Of a stretch of DNA of 57,646 nucleotides, positions 48,397 to 57,646 are shown in pieces. The notes beneath the pieces are model-generated. The model made no database searches. It was given only the letters and a program-made list of their open reading frames with translations, and was not told the DNA's origin. Source of the stretch: an uncultured Nitrospina sp. (GTDB lineage Bacteria; Nitrospinota; Nitrospinia; Nitrospinales; VA-1); assembly GCA_913045445.1 (NCBI GenBank), contig CAJWQP010000007.1:1-57646 (forward strand), read 5' to 3'. The translations under genes and the position numbers were made by a program. Every line of letters begins with the position of its first letter. Within the stretch, counting starts at the first letter, position 1.

Positions 48397-48969
48397 TTAC
48401 TCCATCACAAGATGTTCGAGAGCTTTGAAGGCGGTGGATTCTTTCATGACCGCTTGTGCTTCTTCACTGATTCCATTACCGAATATATCGACGTATTTAA
48501 GGGCCGTCAGTGTCTGGCTTTCTGCAATGGCCTTCCCGCCTTCATCGCCGATTTTATTCTGCGCCAGATCAATCCGCTCCAGATTAACGAGCATGAGGGA
48601 ATCGGCAATCGCCTTGGCTCCATCAGGTCCAATGGCGTTCTTCCAGAGATTGAGTGAGATAAGGCGGGAAAAGATCGGCGATTGGGCAATCGTCCGTGCG
48701 CCTTCATCGCCTATCGAGTTTCTTTCCAGATTGAGGGACGTGAGCCCGAGCAACAGGGTGGACCCCGCCAGAGCTTGAATCCCTTTATCGGTGATATCGT
48801 TTCGCTCCAGCTTCAACTCGCGCAGGTTGGAAAGTTCCGGGCACTGCACCAGATATTCCATTCCCTCGTCACCTATATACTTCAGGCGCAGGTCAAGAAC
48901 CGTTCCTTCCTGAAGAAGATTTTTTTCGATTAAAGTTTCTACGGGTTGGTCATTGAAAGGTCGATTCAT
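48397..48969 (-). CDS. leucine-rich-repeat (RNI-like) protein
   Basis: A 190-residue protein made of six to seven leucine-rich repeats of about 25-28 residues of the ribonuclease-inhibitor type, each with L..L.L..N.IGDEGA.AIA (for example SLNLERNSIGDEGARTIAQ and RIDLAQNKIGDEGGKAIAE). No signal peptide or anchor. Probably a protein-binding scaffold in the cytoplasm. It starts 4 bp after the M1 aminopeptidase stop on the same strand, so the two are likely cotranscribed. Confidence 0.88.
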   Translation of the reverse strand: MNRPFNDQPVETLIEKNLLQEGTVLDLRLKYIGDEGMEYLVQCPELSNLRELKLERNDITDKGIQALAGSTLLLGLTSLNLERNSIGDEGARTIAQSPIFSRLISLNLWKNAIGPDGAKAIADSLMLVNLERIDLAQNKIGDEGGKAIAESQTLTALKYVDIFGNGISEEAQAVMKESTAFKALEHLVME

Positions 48970-48973
48970 TCGT

Positions 48974-51583
48974 TCATCCTTTTTTCTTTCGGGTTTTAGC
49001 GGTATCTTTTTTTTCCATCATATCCATACGCTCGCGCAGTGATTTGTTCTCTGTTATGACATCATCCAGTTCCGAGCGAATATCCTTCATCTCTTTCGGT
49101 TTGATTGCCGATTCACGCAGATAGGTTATGGTATCTTCGGCACGCCTTTGCAATCTGCCATCGGTTTCGTTGTTGACTATTTGCCTGAGCACCGGAATCG
49201 CCGACAGGTCGTCCAATTGCTTCATCGCCGAAATGGCGCCTAATTTACCACGAAACACCGCCGCTGGAGTACCCCGTTTTTCGCGCGCATATCTTTTCAA
49301 ATGCTCGATGACCTCTCCTTTGCGGTGGGGGTGCCGGTGGGCCAGTTTCGCCAGCGCCCGCATTGCGGCCTGACGGCTGTTGCGGTGCGCTCCATACTCT
49401 GCTCCCCTTACCAGATAATCCCATGACTCCTCATTTTCCAGATCGGCAAGCGCGTTGTAAATAGCCGTCTGTGCCATCGCATTATGAGAAGGACGACTGA
49501 TTGATCCTTCGAGAAATTCAAGTGAATCCTTGTCTTTTATTTTCCCAAGTGTCTGCAAGGCAACGGCCTCGACCCTGTAAGAAGAATCGCCTCTGGCAAT
49601 TTTACGAATAGCCTGCGTCGCTTTATCATCATTAACAAAATTTCCCAGTGCGCTCACAACCGCACGACGTGTTTTAGGATCTTTGATTTTCAGTCCGCCA
49701 ATGAGCATATCCCTTGCCTTGTCCCCACCAATTTTGCCCAATGCCCTTGCGATGCGCGTCGCAACGCCCCACTCTTTTTCTTTACGCAGTCTTTCTCCCA
49801 GAACTTTTACATCCTCTGTTGATGATTTTTTCGTCAGTGCGGCGGCGGCCTCCAAACGTCCAATCGGATCTGGGTCACGCTTCAGTTGCTCATGAAGCAT
49901 GGGACGGGAAATATCAATCACCACTACTTTGCAGGGGCATTCGTAGTCAGGATCAATCCTGAAAAAAAGCGGCTTGCTCTTGAGCCGGAAACAGAATTTT
50001 TCTTTTTCCGACTTTATTTCTATGGGAAACCTCTCATCACCCTTCTTGTAATAAAACGCCAGAGTGAAGGGTATCTTGAACAACAGCTCTTCGTTTTTCT
50101 TTTCGGCTTTCTGAGTTTGCTTGACTCCAACCGTCGCCACCTTGCTACCGGAGTCCCATGAAAATGTCAGCTCCAGCTTTGGATAACCGCCACGGAATAT
50201 CCATTGATGCAACCATTCGTCATAGTTACAGCCAGTCACTTCCTCAAGACATCGAATGAAATCCATTGTCTCAACCAGATCGTAGCGGTGGCGGTTTAAA
50301 TAAATTTCCAGCGCTTTCCGGAAATGTTTTTCTCCAACAATGGATTTAAGATGATGCAAACGCACCGCGCCGCCCGGATAAAGATGGGCATCGAACAAAT
50401 CGATGGGTTCCTTATATACATTGGTAACAATAGGTCGCCGATAGGTGAGGTCCTCGCTGAAATAAGTTTCCGCATCCTCCAGCAGTTGATATCTGAAATC
50501 GTTTTCCCCCTTGGACTCATGGGTATAAAGAGCATCGAAATAAGTCGCGAACGATTCGTGCAACCAGGCATGCGACCAGTTTTTGGCCGTCACAATATTA
50601 CCAAACCATGTGTGCGCCGCTTCGTGCGCCACCAGTCCGTTAGAGTCACCGTCCAGCGCGGCACGGTCGTCATGCAAAGTGAGGTCGGTCTGAGTGGTTA
50701 CTGTGAAGTTTTCCATTCCTCCAAAAATGAATTCCGGGACCGCGATTTGCGTGTAATGTTTGTAAGGATAATCGAAGCCGGTATATTCGGAAAAAAATCG
50801 AATGATCTTTCCTGTTTCCTTGAAAGCATTACGCCCCTCTCTTTCACGCCCCTTCTGGACATACCACTTGATATCAACTCCCTTCACTGTTTCCTTATGT
50901 TCGGCAAACTCGCCCGCGACAAAGGATAACAGATAAGTCGAATACGGTAATTCCATCTTGTAGTGAAAAAAAGAACCGGTCGGTGACAACTTCTTTTTAA
51001 CCAGACGTCCGTTTGACAACCCAAACATCCCCGGTGGAAGGTGCATGAGGACTTCTGTCGTTTGCTTGAAATTGGGTTTATCAAAGCAAGGGAAATAGTA
51101 GCAGGAGTCCTCATCCTGTCCCTGTGTCCACAGCGTTTTGAAGCGACCGGCGTGATGATTGTCTGGTTTCGTGAAATAAACCCCTGCTACGGGATGGCTA
51201 ACTGAATGATCCATTTTTACGCGCAACCGCTCACCCGTTTTGTATTTTTTCTTAAGAGTGACAATTATTTTTGTTCCGGTGTTCTCAAAATCGACTGATT
51301 TTCTGCCAATCAAAACACGAGAGACTTCAAGATTGACTGCATCAAAAACAACCTCTTCCACGCCATGCCCTTTGATCTCCAAGTCATATTGAGTGCTCCC
51401 CCAAACGCGTTCCTCCTTCCAGTCGAAATTCAAGTCCAACGTAAGATGCTCTGGCAAAACCTGAGCATCGGGAGTGTAATGTGCTTTGGCCCCTTTATGG
51501 GCAAACGATTTACGATCCAAAAGTCCCCAATGCTCGGACTCACCTTCATGAAAATGGCACTTGCAATAACGTGTAGAGCTCAT
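48974..51583 (-). CDS. M1-family zinc aminopeptidase with C-terminal HEAT-like repeats
   Basis: An 869-residue metallopeptidase. The catalytic domain has GGMENF at 288-293, the zinc motif HEAAH at 320-324 with the third ligand Glu343 in WLHESFATYF, which is the normal HEXXH-X18-E spacing. The N-terminal beta-domain (residues 30-250) is typical. From ~600 to ~830 the family's usual C-terminal domain is replaced by HEAT-like repeats (for example RMLAKLAHRHP-like and TAIYNALADLENEE helices) and a charged coiled-coil tail (KKKG end). The first 12 residues carry a CKCHFH cluster that could bind metal. No signal peptide; peptide turnover in the cytoplasm is expected. Confidence 0.88.
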   Translation of the reverse strand: MSSTRYCKCHFHEGESEHWGLLDRKSFAHKGAKAHYTPDAQVLPEHLTLDLNFDWKEERVWGSTQYDLEIKGHGVEEVVFDAVNLEVSRVLIGRKSVDFENTGTKIIVTLKKKYKTGERLRVKMDHSVSHPVAGVYFTKPDNHHAGRFKTLWTQGQDEDSCYYFPCFDKPNFKQTTEVLMHLPPGMFGLSNGRLVKKKLSPTGSFFHYKMELPYSTYLLSFVAGEFAEHKETVKGVDIKWYVQKGREREGRNAFKETGKIIRFFSEYTGFDYPYKHYTQIAVPEFIFGGMENFTVTTQTDLTLHDDRAALDGDSNGLVAHEAAHTWFGNIVTAKNWSHAWLHESFATYFDALYTHESKGENDFRYQLLEDAETYFSEDLTYRRPIVTNVYKEPIDLFDAHLYPGGAVRLHHLKSIVGEKHFRKALEIYLNRHRYDLVETMDFIRCLEEVTGCNYDEWLHQWIFRGGYPKLELTFSWDSGSKVATVGVKQTQKAEKKNEELLFKIPFTLAFYYKKGDERFPIEIKSEKEKFCFRLKSKPLFFRIDPDYECPCKVVVIDISRPMLHEQLKRDPDPIGRLEAAAALTKKSSTEDVKVLGERLRKEKEWGVATRIARALGKIGGDKARDMLIGGLKIKDPKTRRAVVSALGNFVNDDKATQAIRKIARGDSSYRVEAVALQTLGKIKDKDSLEFLEGSISRPSHNAMAQTAIYNALADLENEESWDYLVRGAEYGAHRNSRQAAMRALAKLAHRHPHRKGEVIEHLKRYAREKRGTPAAVFRGKLGAISAMKQLDDLSAIPVLRQIVNNETDGRLQRRAEDTITYLRESAIKPKEMKDIRSELDDVITENKSLRERMDMMEKKDTAKTRKKKG

Positions 51584-51766: not shown

Positions 51767-52684
51767 ATGAGCGACAAAACAACATTCGATTCCGACCCGG
51801 AAGTTCTTTCACGAATCGCTTCTTTGAACATTTGTGCCACTAATCTGGTCGAAGGTCTGTTATCAGGCCATCATCGAAGCAGGCACAAAGGATCCAGCGT
51901 TGAGTTCGCCGAATACAAGGACTATTCCCCCGGCGATGAAATCAAACATATCGACTGGAAAGTGGTGGGAAAAACAGATAAATACCACGTCAAACAATTT
52001 GAACAATCCACTAACCTGAAAGCCACCATCCTGCTCGACACCAGTGGGTCCATGGGCTACGAATCGCCTGACCCCAGAGGGATGAAAAAAATGGACTACG
52101 CGCGCACCCTTGTCGCCGCGCTTTCCTATCTTTTTCTCAAGCAATACGATGCAGTGGGCCTGTCTTTATTTAATGAGAATGTAATAAATCATATCCCGCC
52201 ACGTTCCAAGCCAGCTCATTTTCAACATATCCTTCACGGGCTGGCAACTATGACACCAACGGGGGTCACCCGACTTGAAGATGTCATTGGCAACCTGGTG
52301 GAACGACTACCCAGCCGAGGAATCCTTATTTTAGTTTCTGACTTTCTCACCAAGGAAACAGAGGTAGAACAAAAACTCAAACTTCTCGTTTCACGAGGGT
52401 TGGAAGTGATTCTATTTCATATACTGGACCCCGACGAAGTATCCTTTCCGTTTGAAGGCGATATTGTATTTGAGTCACTGGAAGACGACCCTCAAGTTGG
52501 CCTGGACCCTGAGGACATCAGAGAAACCTACAAACGTGAGATTCAAAATCAGATTCAGTACTATCGGTCATGCTGTGCCGGACTGGGAATAGATTATGTA
52601 TTTCTTGAAACATCAACTCCGTTGGAACAAGGGCTGAGTTATTATTTGTTGCGACGGAAAAGTCTGGGCAAATCGAGAACATAA
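51767..52684 (+). CDS. DUF58 protein (MoxR/Bat-type VWA-like)
   Basis: A 305-residue protein of the DUF58 family. The N-terminal motif is SVEFAEYKDYSPGDEIKHIDWKV (residues ~44-66), followed by the VWA-like metal site DTSGSMG at 91-97. Thr in TPTGVT and Asp in LVSDFL would complete the MIDAS. In known systems a MoxR AAA+ ATPase, a DUF58 protein and BatA/BatB form one operon involved in assembly of a secreted complex or stress tolerance. Here the BatA-type gene follows by 1 bp, but no MoxR gene is upstream: the neighbour is the divergent aminopeptidase. Confidence 0.92.
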   Translation: MSDKTTFDSDPEVLSRIASLNICATNLVEGLLSGHHRSRHKGSSVEFAEYKDYSPGDEIKHIDWKVVGKTDKYHVKQFEQSTNLKATILLDTSGSMGYESPDPRGMKKMDYARTLVAALSYLFLKQYDAVGLSLFNENVINHIPPRSKPAHFQHILHGLATMTPTGVTRLEDVIGNLVERLPSRGILILVSDFLTKETEVEQKLKLLVSRGLEVILFHILDPDEVSFPFEGDIVFESLEDDPQVGLDPEDIRETYKREIQNQIQYYRSCCAGLGIDYVFLETSTPLEQGLSYYLLRRKSLGKSRT

Positions 52685-52685
52685 A

Positions 52686-54818
52686 ATGAGCCTTAATTTT
52701 CTCTCTCCCTTATATTTGTTTGGATTGCTGGGAATGACCATTCCCATCATGGTTCACCTGTTGACCCGGCGCCAACAAAAACACCTTCGGTTTTCAGCAG
52801 TGCATTTATTATTACAGTCGCAAAAACGCTCCATCAAACGCTCTACCCCGAACCGGAGGTTTTTACTGTTCATCCGGTGCCTGGGAATAGCCTTACTCAG
52901 CCTGGCCCTGGCGAATCCAATTTTTTCATTTAGCGGGCCCTCTGATTTTCTTCCCAACAGTCCTTCGGCAAACGTATTCATCCTTGACGATTCCTACAGC
53001 ATGGGTACTCTTGCCGATCAAAAATCCTATTACACCCACGCCGTTGATGCGTTACTTGACATGAGTCAATCCTTATCCAGCGAAAGCGTTTACAGCGTGG
53101 TATCAGCATCTGGCCCTGCCAGGGTGTTACTCGATTGGAGTACGGACTCCTCCAAAGCAGAAAAACTGTTAAAGCTGAGTCAGCCTTCTTCACGCACCAC
53201 CGATATTGGTCAGGCGATCGCCGAGACTTTTCGGCTATTGGATTCCGCTTCACAAAAGAAAAAACGAGTTTACATCTTAACCGACAGGGATAAAAACGGG
53301 TGGAATGAAGAAAGCTTCTCGCTGACAGGAGAAACGCGCTATCCAATCAACATAATCGACTTTTCCGGAATGCGACAAGGAGGAAACCGGGCGGCCGTGG
53401 AACACACCGAAGTAAGACAGGAGTTCCTGAGCAATAGCCGCGTGATTAGAGTCAAAACAAAAATACTCAATCTGTCGCAAACAAAACCCATCAGAAAACT
53501 AAAGGTATCTCTCTGGATCAACGGCAAAAAACAAAATGAAGGAACATTGGATATCCCAACCAAATCCTCAGCAGAAAAAGAATTTTCCTTTCCCTTAAAG
53601 GAAAATGTCGCGTTAAACGGTGAAGTCCGGATTGAGGACGATTCCCTGCTCAAAGACAATGTTCGATTCTTCAATTACCAGCCGAACCGGACTATTAAAA
53701 CTCTTGTGGTAGACGGCGACCCGAAAACAATAGAACATCAAAGCGAAACATTTTATCTTGAGCGAGCTTTGAATCCATTCTCAGTTTCCCTTTCTAACAT
53801 TGAGCCCACCGTTTCCACGCTGGCGGAACTTTCAACGCGCGACCTGTTCGACTATTCAGTGATTATGCTTTGCAACGTTCGTGACCTCCCTTTCGGCTAC
53901 GAACAGGAACTGGAAAAATTCGTCATGCGTGGTGGAGCGTTATTCATAACCCTAGGAGATCAGGTAGATGCCAAGTTCTATAATGAAAGGATGGGCAATA
54001 TTCTTTCTGTCCGTTTGCAGGCAATACACCAGATCGCAAAAGACGGTGAGCCGTTTCGACTTCTCATTAAACCCAGCAAACATCCGGTCTTAAAAGTTCT
54101 TAAGGGTCGAACCCTTGAAGAAATGAAAAGTATCCGATTTCACTCATTATATAGCGTTGAACCCAGAGAGAACTTAAAACTCACCGTCCCAATGTCGTTT
54201 GAAAACAAATTTCCCGCGCTGATCGAATCAACAGCCGGTAAAGGCAAAGTTATTCTCTTCGTCTCCAGCATTGATCGCGACTGGAATAATTTCTCTATTC
54301 AACCCACTTTTCTGCCATGGATACAACGATGGGTGAAATACTCAGCACGCGGACTCGACAGCCTCATGCTAAAAGAATTGCTGGTGGGCGAACCTTTCAG
54401 CCGGGAAGAACCATCGGAAAGCTCTCAAACCTACATTGTTTTACCAGGGGGCAAAACCACTCGTCCTTCTTTCGAAAACGGACAGGTAACATTTGAAAGC
54501 ACCAATCGTCCGGGGATATACCAACTTTATCGAGGAAGTTCCAAAGCTGACACAAATGCCACACTTCTTCAATTACCTCCCGGCACGGAACCGGCCGGAT
54601 CTTTTAGCGTGAACATCGACACAACAGAATCTTCTTCTATCAAGATAACCAACGAGGAAATTGAAAACTTTTTACCCGGCATGGATATCACATATTTTGA
54701 TGGTTACCAGAAACGTGACCTAAATGGGTCTGAAGGAGGTTCGCCCATGTCCACCGCCTTCATGTTGTTGATGGGGTCAATGCTCCTTTTTGAAGGGTGG
54801 TTAGTACGAAAAGAATAA
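52686..54818 (+). CDS. BatA-domain VWA-like membrane protein
   Basis: A 710-residue protein. The N-terminal BatA region starts with a membrane helix (LNFLSPLYLFGLLGMTIPIMVHLL), then RRQQKHLRFSAVHLL, a second helix near residue 65, and a VWA-like domain whose site is ILDDSYSMG at residues ~98-106. A long periplasmic part follows (FPLKENVALNGEVRIEDDSLLKDN; FVMRGGALFITLGDQVD, like a glutamine-amidotransferase-type fold), and a final C-terminal helix (FMLLMGSMLLFEGWL). It is 1 bp after the DUF58 gene, so translation is coupled. Probable partner of DUF58 in a Bat-type complex. Confidence 0.9.
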   Translation: MSLNFLSPLYLFGLLGMTIPIMVHLLTRRQQKHLRFSAVHLLLQSQKRSIKRSTPNRRFLLFIRCLGIALLSLALANPIFSFSGPSDFLPNSPSANVFILDDSYSMGTLADQKSYYTHAVDALLDMSQSLSSESVYSVVSASGPARVLLDWSTDSSKAEKLLKLSQPSSRTTDIGQAIAETFRLLDSASQKKKRVYILTDRDKNGWNEESFSLTGETRYPINIIDFSGMRQGGNRAAVEHTEVRQEFLSNSRVIRVKTKILNLSQTKPIRKLKVSLWINGKKQNEGTLDIPTKSSAEKEFSFPLKENVALNGEVRIEDDSLLKDNVRFFNYQPNRTIKTLVVDGDPKTIEHQSETFYLERALNPFSVSLSNIEPTVSTLAELSTRDLFDYSVIMLCNVRDLPFGYEQELEKFVMRGGALFITLGDQVDAKFYNERMGNILSVRLQAIHQIAKDGEPFRLLIKPSKHPVLKVLKGRTLEEMKSIRFHSLYSVEPRENLKLTVPMSFENKFPALIESTAGKGKVILFVSSIDRDWNNFSIQPTFLPWIQRWVKYSARGLDSLMLKELLVGEPFSREEPSESSQTYIVLPGGKTTRPSFENGQVTFESTNRPGIYQLYRGSSKADTNATLLQLPPGTEPAGSFSVNIDTTESSSIKITNEEIENFLPGMDITYFDGYQKRDLNGSEGGSPMSTAFMLLMGSMLLFEGWLVRKE

Positions 54819-55000
54819 CTCCTCCACTATCTCTCGACTGGCTCAGGACAGGCGTGGGAGGCAACTTGTTTTACTTTTCCTGCGCGACTAAAATTTCCTG
54901 AGTGCATCCTAAACAGGAAAGGTTCGATGTTTCTCCCCTTGGGCCCACTTCTGCACACCTGAAATGCCTCCTAATATTTAAGGAATCCGCGAAGATCATT

Positions 55001-55009
55001 TGTTATACT
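55001..55009 (+). promoter_or_regulatory. possible extended -10 promoter
   Basis: TGTTATACT fits the extended -10 form (TGnTATAAT), 63 bp before the start of the next gene in the 253-bp gap after the BatA gene. No matching -35 box is clear. The rest of the gap shows no gene. Confidence 0.3.
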
Positions 55010-55071
55010 GGCCTCATCGGATGCAATTAATATTTCCGCAACCCTGTTGATCAGGGGACACAATATATTTC

Positions 55072-57646
55072 ATGAAATTACTCAGATCATCCTTTTATGC
55101 GCTCCTCTACTGCATGCTCCTGTGTGGAATTATGCAATCCCGCACCGTTTCTGCTGAAGCCCTCTCTCCCGATTCAATTGAGAAACGCCTTACATCGATT
55201 TTCTCCAAAAACTCAGAATCGATTGACCTGACAGAAACATTACTCTTGATATCCAGAGACTGGAATTCTGCTTTGAATGAAAAGCCTTTGCGAGATGAAA
55301 TCGACCAAATAGTGAAAGCGGTGCAAACCCAGTTGCGACCCGAAGGCACCGCACAGGAAACAGTCGATATACTGCGACAAGTGATCCACAACGAGAAAGG
55401 GTATCGCTACACAGACCAGGTCGACAACCAGGGGGTACCAGTCAATCCGGACGAACTTTTCCTCCACGGGATGCTGAAATCCAAACGCGGGTACTGCATG
55501 AATCTTTCTCTCCTGTACCTTATTGTGGGAGATCGCTTGAACCTTCCTCTTTACGGAGTCGGTTTGCCCAATCATTTTTTTGTCCGTTACGAATCGGGAA
55601 TTGACCGCATCAATATAGAAGCCACAGAATCGGGCGCCAGCTATCCAGACTCATTTTACGAAAACAAATTTGGATTAAAGTTTGATGCCGGAACCCCCTT
55701 TTTCACCCATAACCTGAACAAAAAGCAAACTCTGGGTGCCTATCTTTCTAATGTAGGGATGGTCTATTACAAAAATTCGCGTTCGCAAAAAGCTATTTTT
55801 TATTTAAAACCCGCAACCGAAATAAATCCTTTATCGATTGAAGTGCATAACAATCTGGCAAACATCTATGGCGAAATGAAACTGGGCGGGCTGGCAATTG
55901 AACAATATCAGAAGGCATTGATCGCCGATCCGAATAGCGTCCCCACTTTATATAACCTTGGCCTGACCTATGTCGACCTTGCTGATTCAGACAAAGCCAT
56001 CGATACATTTTTACAGGTAACGCAGATCAAACCTTCGTTTGCTAAAGCGCATCGGCAATTGATTCAACTTTATCTCGCTAAAGAAAAGTTCATTAGCGCT
56101 CTTTTACATTTAAAACAAATGATCAAGATAAACCCCAATGATATAAGTAGCCATGTCACTATGGGGAAAGTTTATACCAAGCTGAAAAACTTCAGACTAG
56201 CCGTGGAAACCCTCCATCGTATAAAATCGCGTCATCCAGACAATATCGAAGCCCTTGAAGCGCTGGCTGAGACCTATTACAGGATGGAGTTTCTTGATCG
56301 TTCAATATTCGAATACCGACACCTTTTGGAAAAGAATCCCAAATATCTTCCCGCTTATATCCAGTTGGGGTGGGTTCACTATCGCAAGGGCGAGTTTCGC
56401 ATGGCCATCGCCTGGACCCGCCGCGGCCTGAAACTGGGAATCAAATCGCCTCAACTGATCACCCTCGCCAATATGAATCTGGGGTTGTATGCCTGGATGA
56501 ACGGAAACCACTCATCGTCAAAAAACTGGTACCAAGAGGCATTAAAAGATACGTCAGGTACCGTACAACAGGGAATATTGAATGACCTGAAAGAATCCAC
56601 CGTCCTCTTTCCCAAGCGCAAAGAAGCAGATTTTTATTCCGGCTGGATCTACATGAAATCCGGAAAAAGAGAAAAGGCTCTCCCCTTTTTACGACGCTTT
56701 CTGGCTCTCGCTCCCGATGGCGAATTGGCAGATGAGGCAAGAAACCTACTCAGCGAAAAATCACCCCCTGGGACAACCGAAAAACCTGCCGATCCTGATA
56801 GTGGTTCAGCCTCGACAGGAAAGACTCCAGAAGATATGGCCCTGGTTCCCGGCGGATTTTTCATCATGGGCTCCAACGATCATGGCGAAGACGAATCCCC
56901 AGAACATAAAACCTATATGGCCCCCTACTACATCGACCTTTATGAAGTTTCAGCAAGCGATTTCGCTGAATTCCTGAACGAGGTCAACAATGTGAATGGA
57001 TATTACCTCGATAATAAATTCGGGACACTGTTTTTCAATGGCAGGTACCATCCCAGAAAAGGATTCGAAAATCATCCCATCAACAACGTCAAATGGAGGG
57101 GAGCCGCTGAATATTGCAAATGGAAAGAAAAACGTCTTCCCACCGAAGCAGAATGGGAGAAAGCCGCTCGCGGCACGGATGGACGCATTTATCCCTGGGG
57201 AAACAATCCGCCCAAACCTGACCTGGCCCGGTATCGGCAGGAGTGGACAAAGGAAATTGCACACCATGTGATGGTCCCGGTGAATATTTTCCAGAAAGGC
57301 ACAAGCCCCTATGGGGTGTATAACATGGCAGGAAACGTCAAAGAATGGGTAGACGACTGGTTCGATCGAGAGTATTATGATGATCCAGCCAATCACATAA
57401 ATCCCAAAGGCCAAATCGGAGGGGAATTTAAGGTATTGAAAGGAGGGTCGTGGCGGGACCTCAAGGGATTTATTTATTCCTCATTCCGCAACAACAACCG
57501 TCCCGGAGCACGATTGGATGACTATGGTTTCCGTTGCGCGAAAAGTCTCAAAGACAAGAGCGGAACGAAACAATTAACCAAATGGCCACAGACCAAACGG
57601 TCACAGACTAAACGACCACAATGGGAAATACTAATGTTTGAACGAG
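55072..57646 (+). CDS. secreted SirB1-like transglutaminase / TPR / SUMF1-like fusion protein (partial)
   Basis: The frame is open from ATG 55072 to the window end (858 complete codons), so the 3' end is missing. A signal peptide (residues 1-~28) precedes a SirB1-like transglutaminase-type domain with Cys142 in RGYCMNLSLLYL and His168 in GVGLPNHFFVRY. About ten TPR-like repeats cover ~220-560. A Pro/Ser linker leads to a SUMF1/FGE-like domain from ~588 (MALVPGGFFIMGS, KRLPTEAEWEKAARG, NMAGNVKEWVDDW, KVLKGGSW, GFRCA). The two cysteines of the true formylglycine enzyme are absent, so it is probably a binding or non-FGE member. The three-part fusion lies behind the Bat-type pair. Confidence 0.85.
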   Translation, partial: MKLLRSSFYALLYCMLLCGIMQSRTVSAEALSPDSIEKRLTSIFSKNSESIDLTETLLLISRDWNSALNEKPLRDEIDQIVKAVQTQLRPEGTAQETVDILRQVIHNEKGYRYTDQVDNQGVPVNPDELFLHGMLKSKRGYCMNLSLLYLIVGDRLNLPLYGVGLPNHFFVRYESGIDRINIEATESGASYPDSFYENKFGLKFDAGTPFFTHNLNKKQTLGAYLSNVGMVYYKNSRSQKAIFYLKPATEINPLSIEVHNNLANIYGEMKLGGLAIEQYQKALIADPNSVPTLYNLGLTYVDLADSDKAIDTFLQVTQIKPSFAKAHRQLIQLYLAKEKFISALLHLKQMIKINPNDISSHVTMGKVYTKLKNFRLAVETLHRIKSRHPDNIEALEALAETYYRMEFLDRSIFEYRHLLEKNPKYLPAYIQLGWVHYRKGEFRMAIAWTRRGLKLGIKSPQLITLANMNLGLYAWMNGNHSSSKNWYQEALKDTSGTVQQGILNDLKESTVLFPKRKEADFYSGWIYMKSGKREKALPFLRRFLALAPDGELADEARNLLSEKSPPGTTEKPADPDSGSASTGKTPEDMALVPGGFFIMGSNDHGEDESPEHKTYMAPYYIDLYEVSASDFAEFLNEVNNVNGYYLDNKFGTLFFNGRYHPRKGFENHPINNVKWRGAAEYCKWKEKRLPTEAEWEKAARGTDGRIYPWGNNPPKPDLARYRQEWTKEIAHHVMVPVNIFQKGTSPYGVYNMAGNVKEWVDDWFDREYYDDPANHINPKGQIGGEFKVLKGGSWRDLKGFIYSSFRNNNRPGARLDDYGFRCAKSLKDKSGTKQLTKWPQTKRSQTKRPQWEILMFER

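Follow-up and report, generated by a model that had tools for sequence, protein, structure and literature searches.

An order-wide rearrangement of the MoxR/DUF58/BatA gene set in the Nitrospinales, with a lineage-specific SirB1-TPR-SUMF1 neighbour

Introduction

The partners of MoxR ATPases are usually assigned by gene adjacency. The Bat operons of Riemerella have MoxR at their head, followed by DUF58, VWA and TPR proteins (PMC11834572), and Leptospira retains moxR in its bat cluster (PMC3557215). In bifidobacteria, the PFNA cluster links MoxR (aaa-atp) and duf58 with the transglutaminase-like gene tgm (PMC8430577). In NorQ/NorD, a MoxR AAA+ ring and its VWA partner act together on a client associated with the membrane (PMC9976466). 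NorQ/NorD and RavA/ViaA are MoxR–VWA couples but belong to protein subfamilies different from those considered here, and we compare with them only as regards the way in which such couples might work.

Here we analyse a DUF58–BatA locus on a contig of 57,646 bp (contig C7), referred to as the window, from a 2.3-Mb, 151-contig Nitrospinaceae metagenome-assembled genome. An earlier note on this DNA had proposed an alternative envelope module, either ATPase-free or served by an ATPase in trans. Our results describe a conserved, order-wide rearrangement of the known MoxR/DUF58/BatA system, and not a new system; in most of these genomes the gene of a lineage-specific, secreted three-domain protein stands beside the pair.

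Three co-directional genes lie together without MoxR

The genes for DUF58, a BatA/VWA protein and a SirB1-TPR-SUMF1 fusion all lie in line on the plus strand of the window (Table 1), and the Pfam and TIGR matches bear out the side-by-side arrangement that had been read from the sequence. The earlier observation that no ATPase stands upstream also held: we found no MoxR adjoining these genes in the window. The upstream neighbours, on the minus strand and divergent from DUF58 (48397–51583), encode an LRR protein and an M1 aminopeptidase/HEAT protein. Promoter and terminator scans gave results near chance.

Table 1 Features of the DUF58–BatA–fusion locus in window coordinates.
Feature	Position	Strand	Basis or remark
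DUF58 protein, 305 aa	51767..52684	+	PF01882 E 1e-44; VWA_2 1.6e-9
Long BatA protein, 710 aa	52686..54818	+	PF07584 E 5.5e-15; VWA_2 2.2e-14; TIGR02226 7e-18
BatA/TIGR02226 double-transmembrane anchor	52686..52919	+	positively charged loop between helices
BatA VWA domain, MIDAS DDSYS	52974..53285	+	PF13519, residues 97-200
SirB1-TPR-SUMF1 fusion	55072..57645	+	N-terminal signal-like segment; ORF runs to contig end (57646)
Transglut_core2 (SirB1-like) domain	55291..55641	+	profile match and 27-sequence alignment
TPR superhelix	55720..56751	+	profile match and AlphaFold model
FGE-sulfatase/SUMF1-like domain	56830..57543	+	profile match; without the two FGE active-site cysteines

The DUF58 product is a VWA-like protein with the MIDAS motif DTSGS at residue 91; hydropathy predicted no transmembrane segment, and it is therefore probably cytosolic. 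BatA starts 1 bp past the DUF58 stop codon and comprises an N-terminal two-transmembrane anchor, a VWA domain, β-sandwich and α/β regions and a C-terminal helix, a layout taken partly from an AlphaFold model of modest confidence. (Our AlphaFold models, built from 5–6 sequences, all had modest confidence, and the model of the third protein did not resolve its SUMF1 region.) BatA residues D101, S103 and S105 were invariant in an alignment of 27 orthologues. Because the loop between the anchor helices is positively charged, the positive-inside rule puts the predicted location of the VWA domain in the periplasm. Within BatA, a fold search of the PDB was informative for two parts only, the VWA and the CARDB-like ones; the VWA fold resembles that of the solved BatB structures 3ibs and 4jdu.

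The third gene, separated from BatA by 253 bp, holds in one ORF a Transglut_core2 domain (E = 2.4e-19), many TPRs and an FGE-sulfatase/SUMF1 domain (E = 5.7e-55), and its product is secreted-looking, judging from the N-terminal segment. Truncation of the gene by the contig end was rejected, as it is essentially complete against 26 orthologues, with the extreme C-terminus alone uncertain. Across 27 orthologues, Cys142 and His168 of the SirB1 domain are invariant and residue 183 is Glu or Asp, a set consistent with an active SirB1/transglutaminase-like site; no solved structure matched this domain. The SUMF1-like domain matches FGE at up to 116 bits and PorK at 64 bits, with the GldK NCBIfam below cut-off; PorK and GldK share the SUMF1 fold with the fusion, a likeness taken from the domain match. 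Whereas FGE has two active-site cysteines in its GGS(W/Y) motif, the C-terminal motif here is GGSWRD...IYSS (window sequence GGSWRDLKGFIYSS), in which cysteine is absent from the 27 orthologues and Asp796 is invariant. We rejected FGE activity as unlikely because these cysteines are missing.

Two MoxR genes are encoded elsewhere in the genome

The search of the rest of the genome that the earlier note had proposed yielded two strong, full-length MoxR genes, on contigs C55 and C68, which are 45% identical, together with three weaker AAA_3 matches. These genome-wide checks were made by family and protein searches. Contig C55 carries a canonical Bat operon of MoxR, DUF58, a 151-aa protein, BatD-like, BatA-VWA and BatB-VWA, the last three named from sequence inspection. 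The cluster on contig C68 runs DUF4175, TPR/Peptidase_MA and MoxR, with MoxR last and no DUF58 behind it. The MIDAS motifs of the VWA proteins, the Walker A and B motifs and the peptidase HExxH motif are all intact. As the genome was found to hold two DUF58 and two BatA genes, it contains one complete Bat operon, an extra DUF58/BatA set (in the window) and an extra MoxR set. We found no link between DUF4175 and MoxR in the literature searched. Two papers that name Nitrospina as well as MoxR seemed, by title and abstract, to have no bearing on the system.

On contig C76 (L009, 1448–1615), an AAA_3 match of 56 residues, which contains a TGA, lies within and just beyond the end of a uracil-DNA-glycosylase-like ORF; it may be a fragment of MoxR, the remnant of a pseudogene or an artefact of assembly.

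The divided arrangement is conserved across the Nitrospinales

We surveyed 64 Nitrospinales genomes, with counts limited to scorable cases. The window genes recur in these genomes, mostly at 44–67% identity, which argues that the three-gene set is not due to chance. Window-type DUF58 and long BatA were adjacent and co-directional in all 51 cases in which they shared a contig. In 40 of the 44 genomes that could be scored for it, a co-directional SirB1 domain gene lay within 2 kb downstream of BatA, and the order DUF58–BatA–SirB1/TPR/SUMF1, which the earlier note had named as a mark of a module, is held in most genera of the order. Among named genome records, five encode a BatA relative, all of them Nitrospinaceae or Nitrospina metagenome-assembled genomes; long BatA, the SirB1 fusion and DUF4175 were not found in 13 genomes of the class's other orders.

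The BatA–SirB1 link is looser than the DUF58–BatA link: it does not hold in two genera or in several further genomes. In genomes G019 and G023 the fusion is co-directional with BatA but 17–19 kb distant from it, and in G050 and G052 it is about 8.4 kb away on the opposite strand; overall it has moved 8–19 kb off, or onto another contig, in several genomes. At one locus (L043, 7993–9018), an opposite-strand response-regulator/CheB-methylesterase gene, identified by Pfam at this locus only, sits between BatA and the fusion, and opposite-strand ORFs of similar length occur at L045, L050 and L054. Because the link to the third gene is looser, and in places broken or interrupted by the CheB-like gene, its share in the joint function suggested earlier for the three genes is one that we still infer.

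C68-type MoxR was present in 57 of the Nitrospinales genomes searched, but near BatA in none of 48 scorable genomes. In five of these 48 both genes were on one contig, 64 kb to 2.9 Mb apart, and in three single-contig genomes the distance from MoxR to DUF58–BatA was 0.4–2.9 Mb. DUF4175 lay less than 2.6 kb upstream of C68-type MoxR in 55 of 56 genomes, with the TPR/peptidase gene between the two in the loci read.

The Nitrospinales set thus resembles the MRP-type MoxR/Bat operon of Bacteroides, Riemerella and Leptospira in the succession of DUF58 and a BatA-type VWA membrane protein (51/51), in the intact MIDAS motifs of its VWA proteins and in having TPR proteins nearby, here multi-domain ones (SirB1-TPR-SUMF1, and TPR/Peptidase_MA beside MoxR). 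It differs in that MoxR is not directly upstream of DUF58 (0/48 Nitrospinales) and sits at the C68 locus, in the long TIGR02226 type of the window BatA, and in the SirB1 and SUMF1 domains added to the TPR protein. The bifidobacterial PFNA cluster, by comparison, has its ATPase in cis and a TGM with a transmembrane region, in contrast to the apparently secreted SirB1-type fusion described here.

Outgroups carry the genes in a single run

A search of a plasmid collection with window-type DUF58 led to Gemmatirosa kalamazoonensis plasmid 1 (L105), on which TPR/Peptidase_MA, MoxR, DUF58, BatA and DUF4175 form one run. Its MoxR is 56% identical to that of C68, and identities were 34% for DUF58, 23% for long BatA and 30% for DUF4175; Pfam agrees on the run, with DUF4175 just below cut-off and Peptidase_MA below cut-off. 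In the circular record of the Planctomyces plasmid pPL62-3, a C68-type MoxR stands last, and the record starts with DUF58, BatA and a VWA gene. Both runs share homologous DUF58, long BatA and C68-type MoxR with the Nitrospinales, and the Gemmatirosa run alone also has the DUF4175 and TPR/Peptidase_MA homologues. Unlike these united examples, the Nitrospinales set is split: all components of the Gemmatirosa-type unit are in the genome, but in every scorable Nitrospinales genome they occupied two loci and never one run. We recognised no SirB1-TPR-SUMF1 gene in the Gemmatirosa and Planctomyces stretches read.

Among 17 genomes of a further outgroup phylum, families f13 and f15 carry MoxR–DUF58–BatA, with DUF763 inserted in f13, and two f12 genomes carry MoxR–DUF58; in the f14 loci read, no MoxR was beside DUF58. 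MoxR directly upstream of window-type DUF58, an arrangement that the earlier note would have held against its module had close relatives shown it, was seen only in distant phyla. The f13 DUF763 gene is upstream of DUF58 (L102, 2391–3461; L104, 141–1211), and at L102 and L127 it lies between MoxR and DUF58. In outgroup genomes G079 and G077, we rejected the gene after DUF58 as a BatA, since its Pfam matches were FTCD and SppA.

MoxR and DUF58 show the same division in their trees. Every MoxR adjoining a window-type DUF58 groups with C68-type MoxR (97% SH-aLRT), and every MoxR adjoining a C55-type DUF58 groups with C55-type MoxR (99% SH-aLRT). These trees, which cover MoxR and DUF58, were inferred by quick searching with SH-aLRT as the sole measure of support, and some of their branches are long, among them those of the Gemmatirosa and Planctomyces plasmid sequences. 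The Nitrospinales MoxR and DUF58 share clades, and hence ancestry, with the united examples.

Discussion

We consider it likely that a MoxR/DUF58/BatA envelope operon has come apart and that the window pair is one of its halves, served in trans by the C68 MoxR. The unit of TPR-peptidase, MoxR, DUF58, long BatA and DUF4175 that Gemmatirosa keeps in one run, and Planctomyces and another phylum keep in part, would have split in the Nitrospinales into DUF4175-TPR/peptidase-MoxR (C68) and DUF58-BatA (window). By analogy with NorQ and NorD, the AAA+ ring of the C68 MoxR would engage the VWA-like, cytosolic DUF58 protein, and MoxR–DUF58 might remodel a complex in the membrane of which BatA is a part. 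In the periplasm, its partners or clients would be the TPR-metallopeptidase, which is exported, together with the DUF4175 protein and SirB1-TPR-SUMF1. The last of these would have been added in this lineage; its TPR and SUMF1 folds could bind partners while its Cys-His-Glu/Asp site cut or cross-linked a target. Several points tell against such a split operon: the co-occurrence rests on few evolutionary events, one order having all the parts and the others none; the adjacency of SirB1 may be block synteny, as the LRR and M1 neighbours are often conserved too; and a cytosolic MoxR–DUF58 acting on a mostly periplasmic BatA would need a coupling step.

The ATPase could come from another source. 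The C55 MoxR, encoded in the same genome and 45% identical to the C68 protein, might serve both DUF58/BatA sets, leaving the C68 MoxR to work only with DUF4175 and the TPR-peptidase; yet a DUF58 of its own stands beside it in the C55 operon, window-type DUF58 adjoins C68-type MoxR in outgroups, and the two trees split alike, so that we regard this arrangement as improbable. Still harder to sustain is the proposal that DUF58–BatA–SirB1/TPR/SUMF1 acts without any MoxR. MoxR is in cis in no Nitrospinales genome scored, but the intact MIDAS motifs and the C68-type MoxR in 57 of the Nitrospinales genomes searched make it very unlikely, and we reject it because matching MoxR genes lie in trans in most genomes. 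Of the two forms that the earlier note had given its module, the ATPase-free one is therefore not supported, and the one with an ATPase in trans is: no scorable close relative has MoxR in cis, and these genomes carry, at another locus, a MoxR of the very subfamily that adjoins this DUF58 in other phyla.

The third gene is a more evenly balanced matter. SirB1-TPR-SUMF1 could well be, though we put this somewhat short of an even chance, an unrelated neighbour held in place by order-level synteny and working in another envelope process. On the far side of DUF58, the LRR gene is kept in 25 of 30 loci read and the M1 gene in 16, and since the LRR gene is conserved about as well as the fusion, the BatA–SirB1 adjacency is only moderate evidence of a shared role; the 253-bp gap in the window, the interrupting CheB-like gene and the displaced fusions point the same way. 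Against this, the fusion is co-directional and within 2 kb of BatA in 40 of 44 genomes across the order, 53 of the 55 genomes that have DUF58/BatA also encode it, even where it is displaced, and MoxR/DUF58 clusters are known to be accompanied by TPR and transglutaminase-like genes (PMC11834572, PMC8430577).

Within the split-operon reading, we tentatively suggest, with rather less than even confidence, that DUF4175-peptidase-MoxR and DUF58-BatA-SirB1/TPR/SUMF1 are the motor and effector modules of one MoxR-driven envelope machine, encoded and regulated separately, in which the secreted fusion is a lineage-specific periplasmic processing or scaffolding partner. In this system the gene of the motor stands apart from those of its partners throughout an order, and the cognate ATPase can be identified from outgroup operons and trees. 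The case thereby offers a testable pairing, of the window DUF58 with the C68 and not the C55 MoxR, and names SirB1-TPR-SUMF1 as a candidate periplasmic partner.

Variant loci

In the single-contig genome G008 (L079 and C1:1436046–1437752), the C68-type MoxR ORF is short, at 259 aa, and DUF4175 gave only a fragmentary match, 394 kb from it, suggesting decay, or assembly or sequencing errors. In G047 (L048, 12389–16124), a lipid-transport-like cluster of MlaE, ABC ATPase, MlaD and TPR genes stands upstream of DUF58–BatA.
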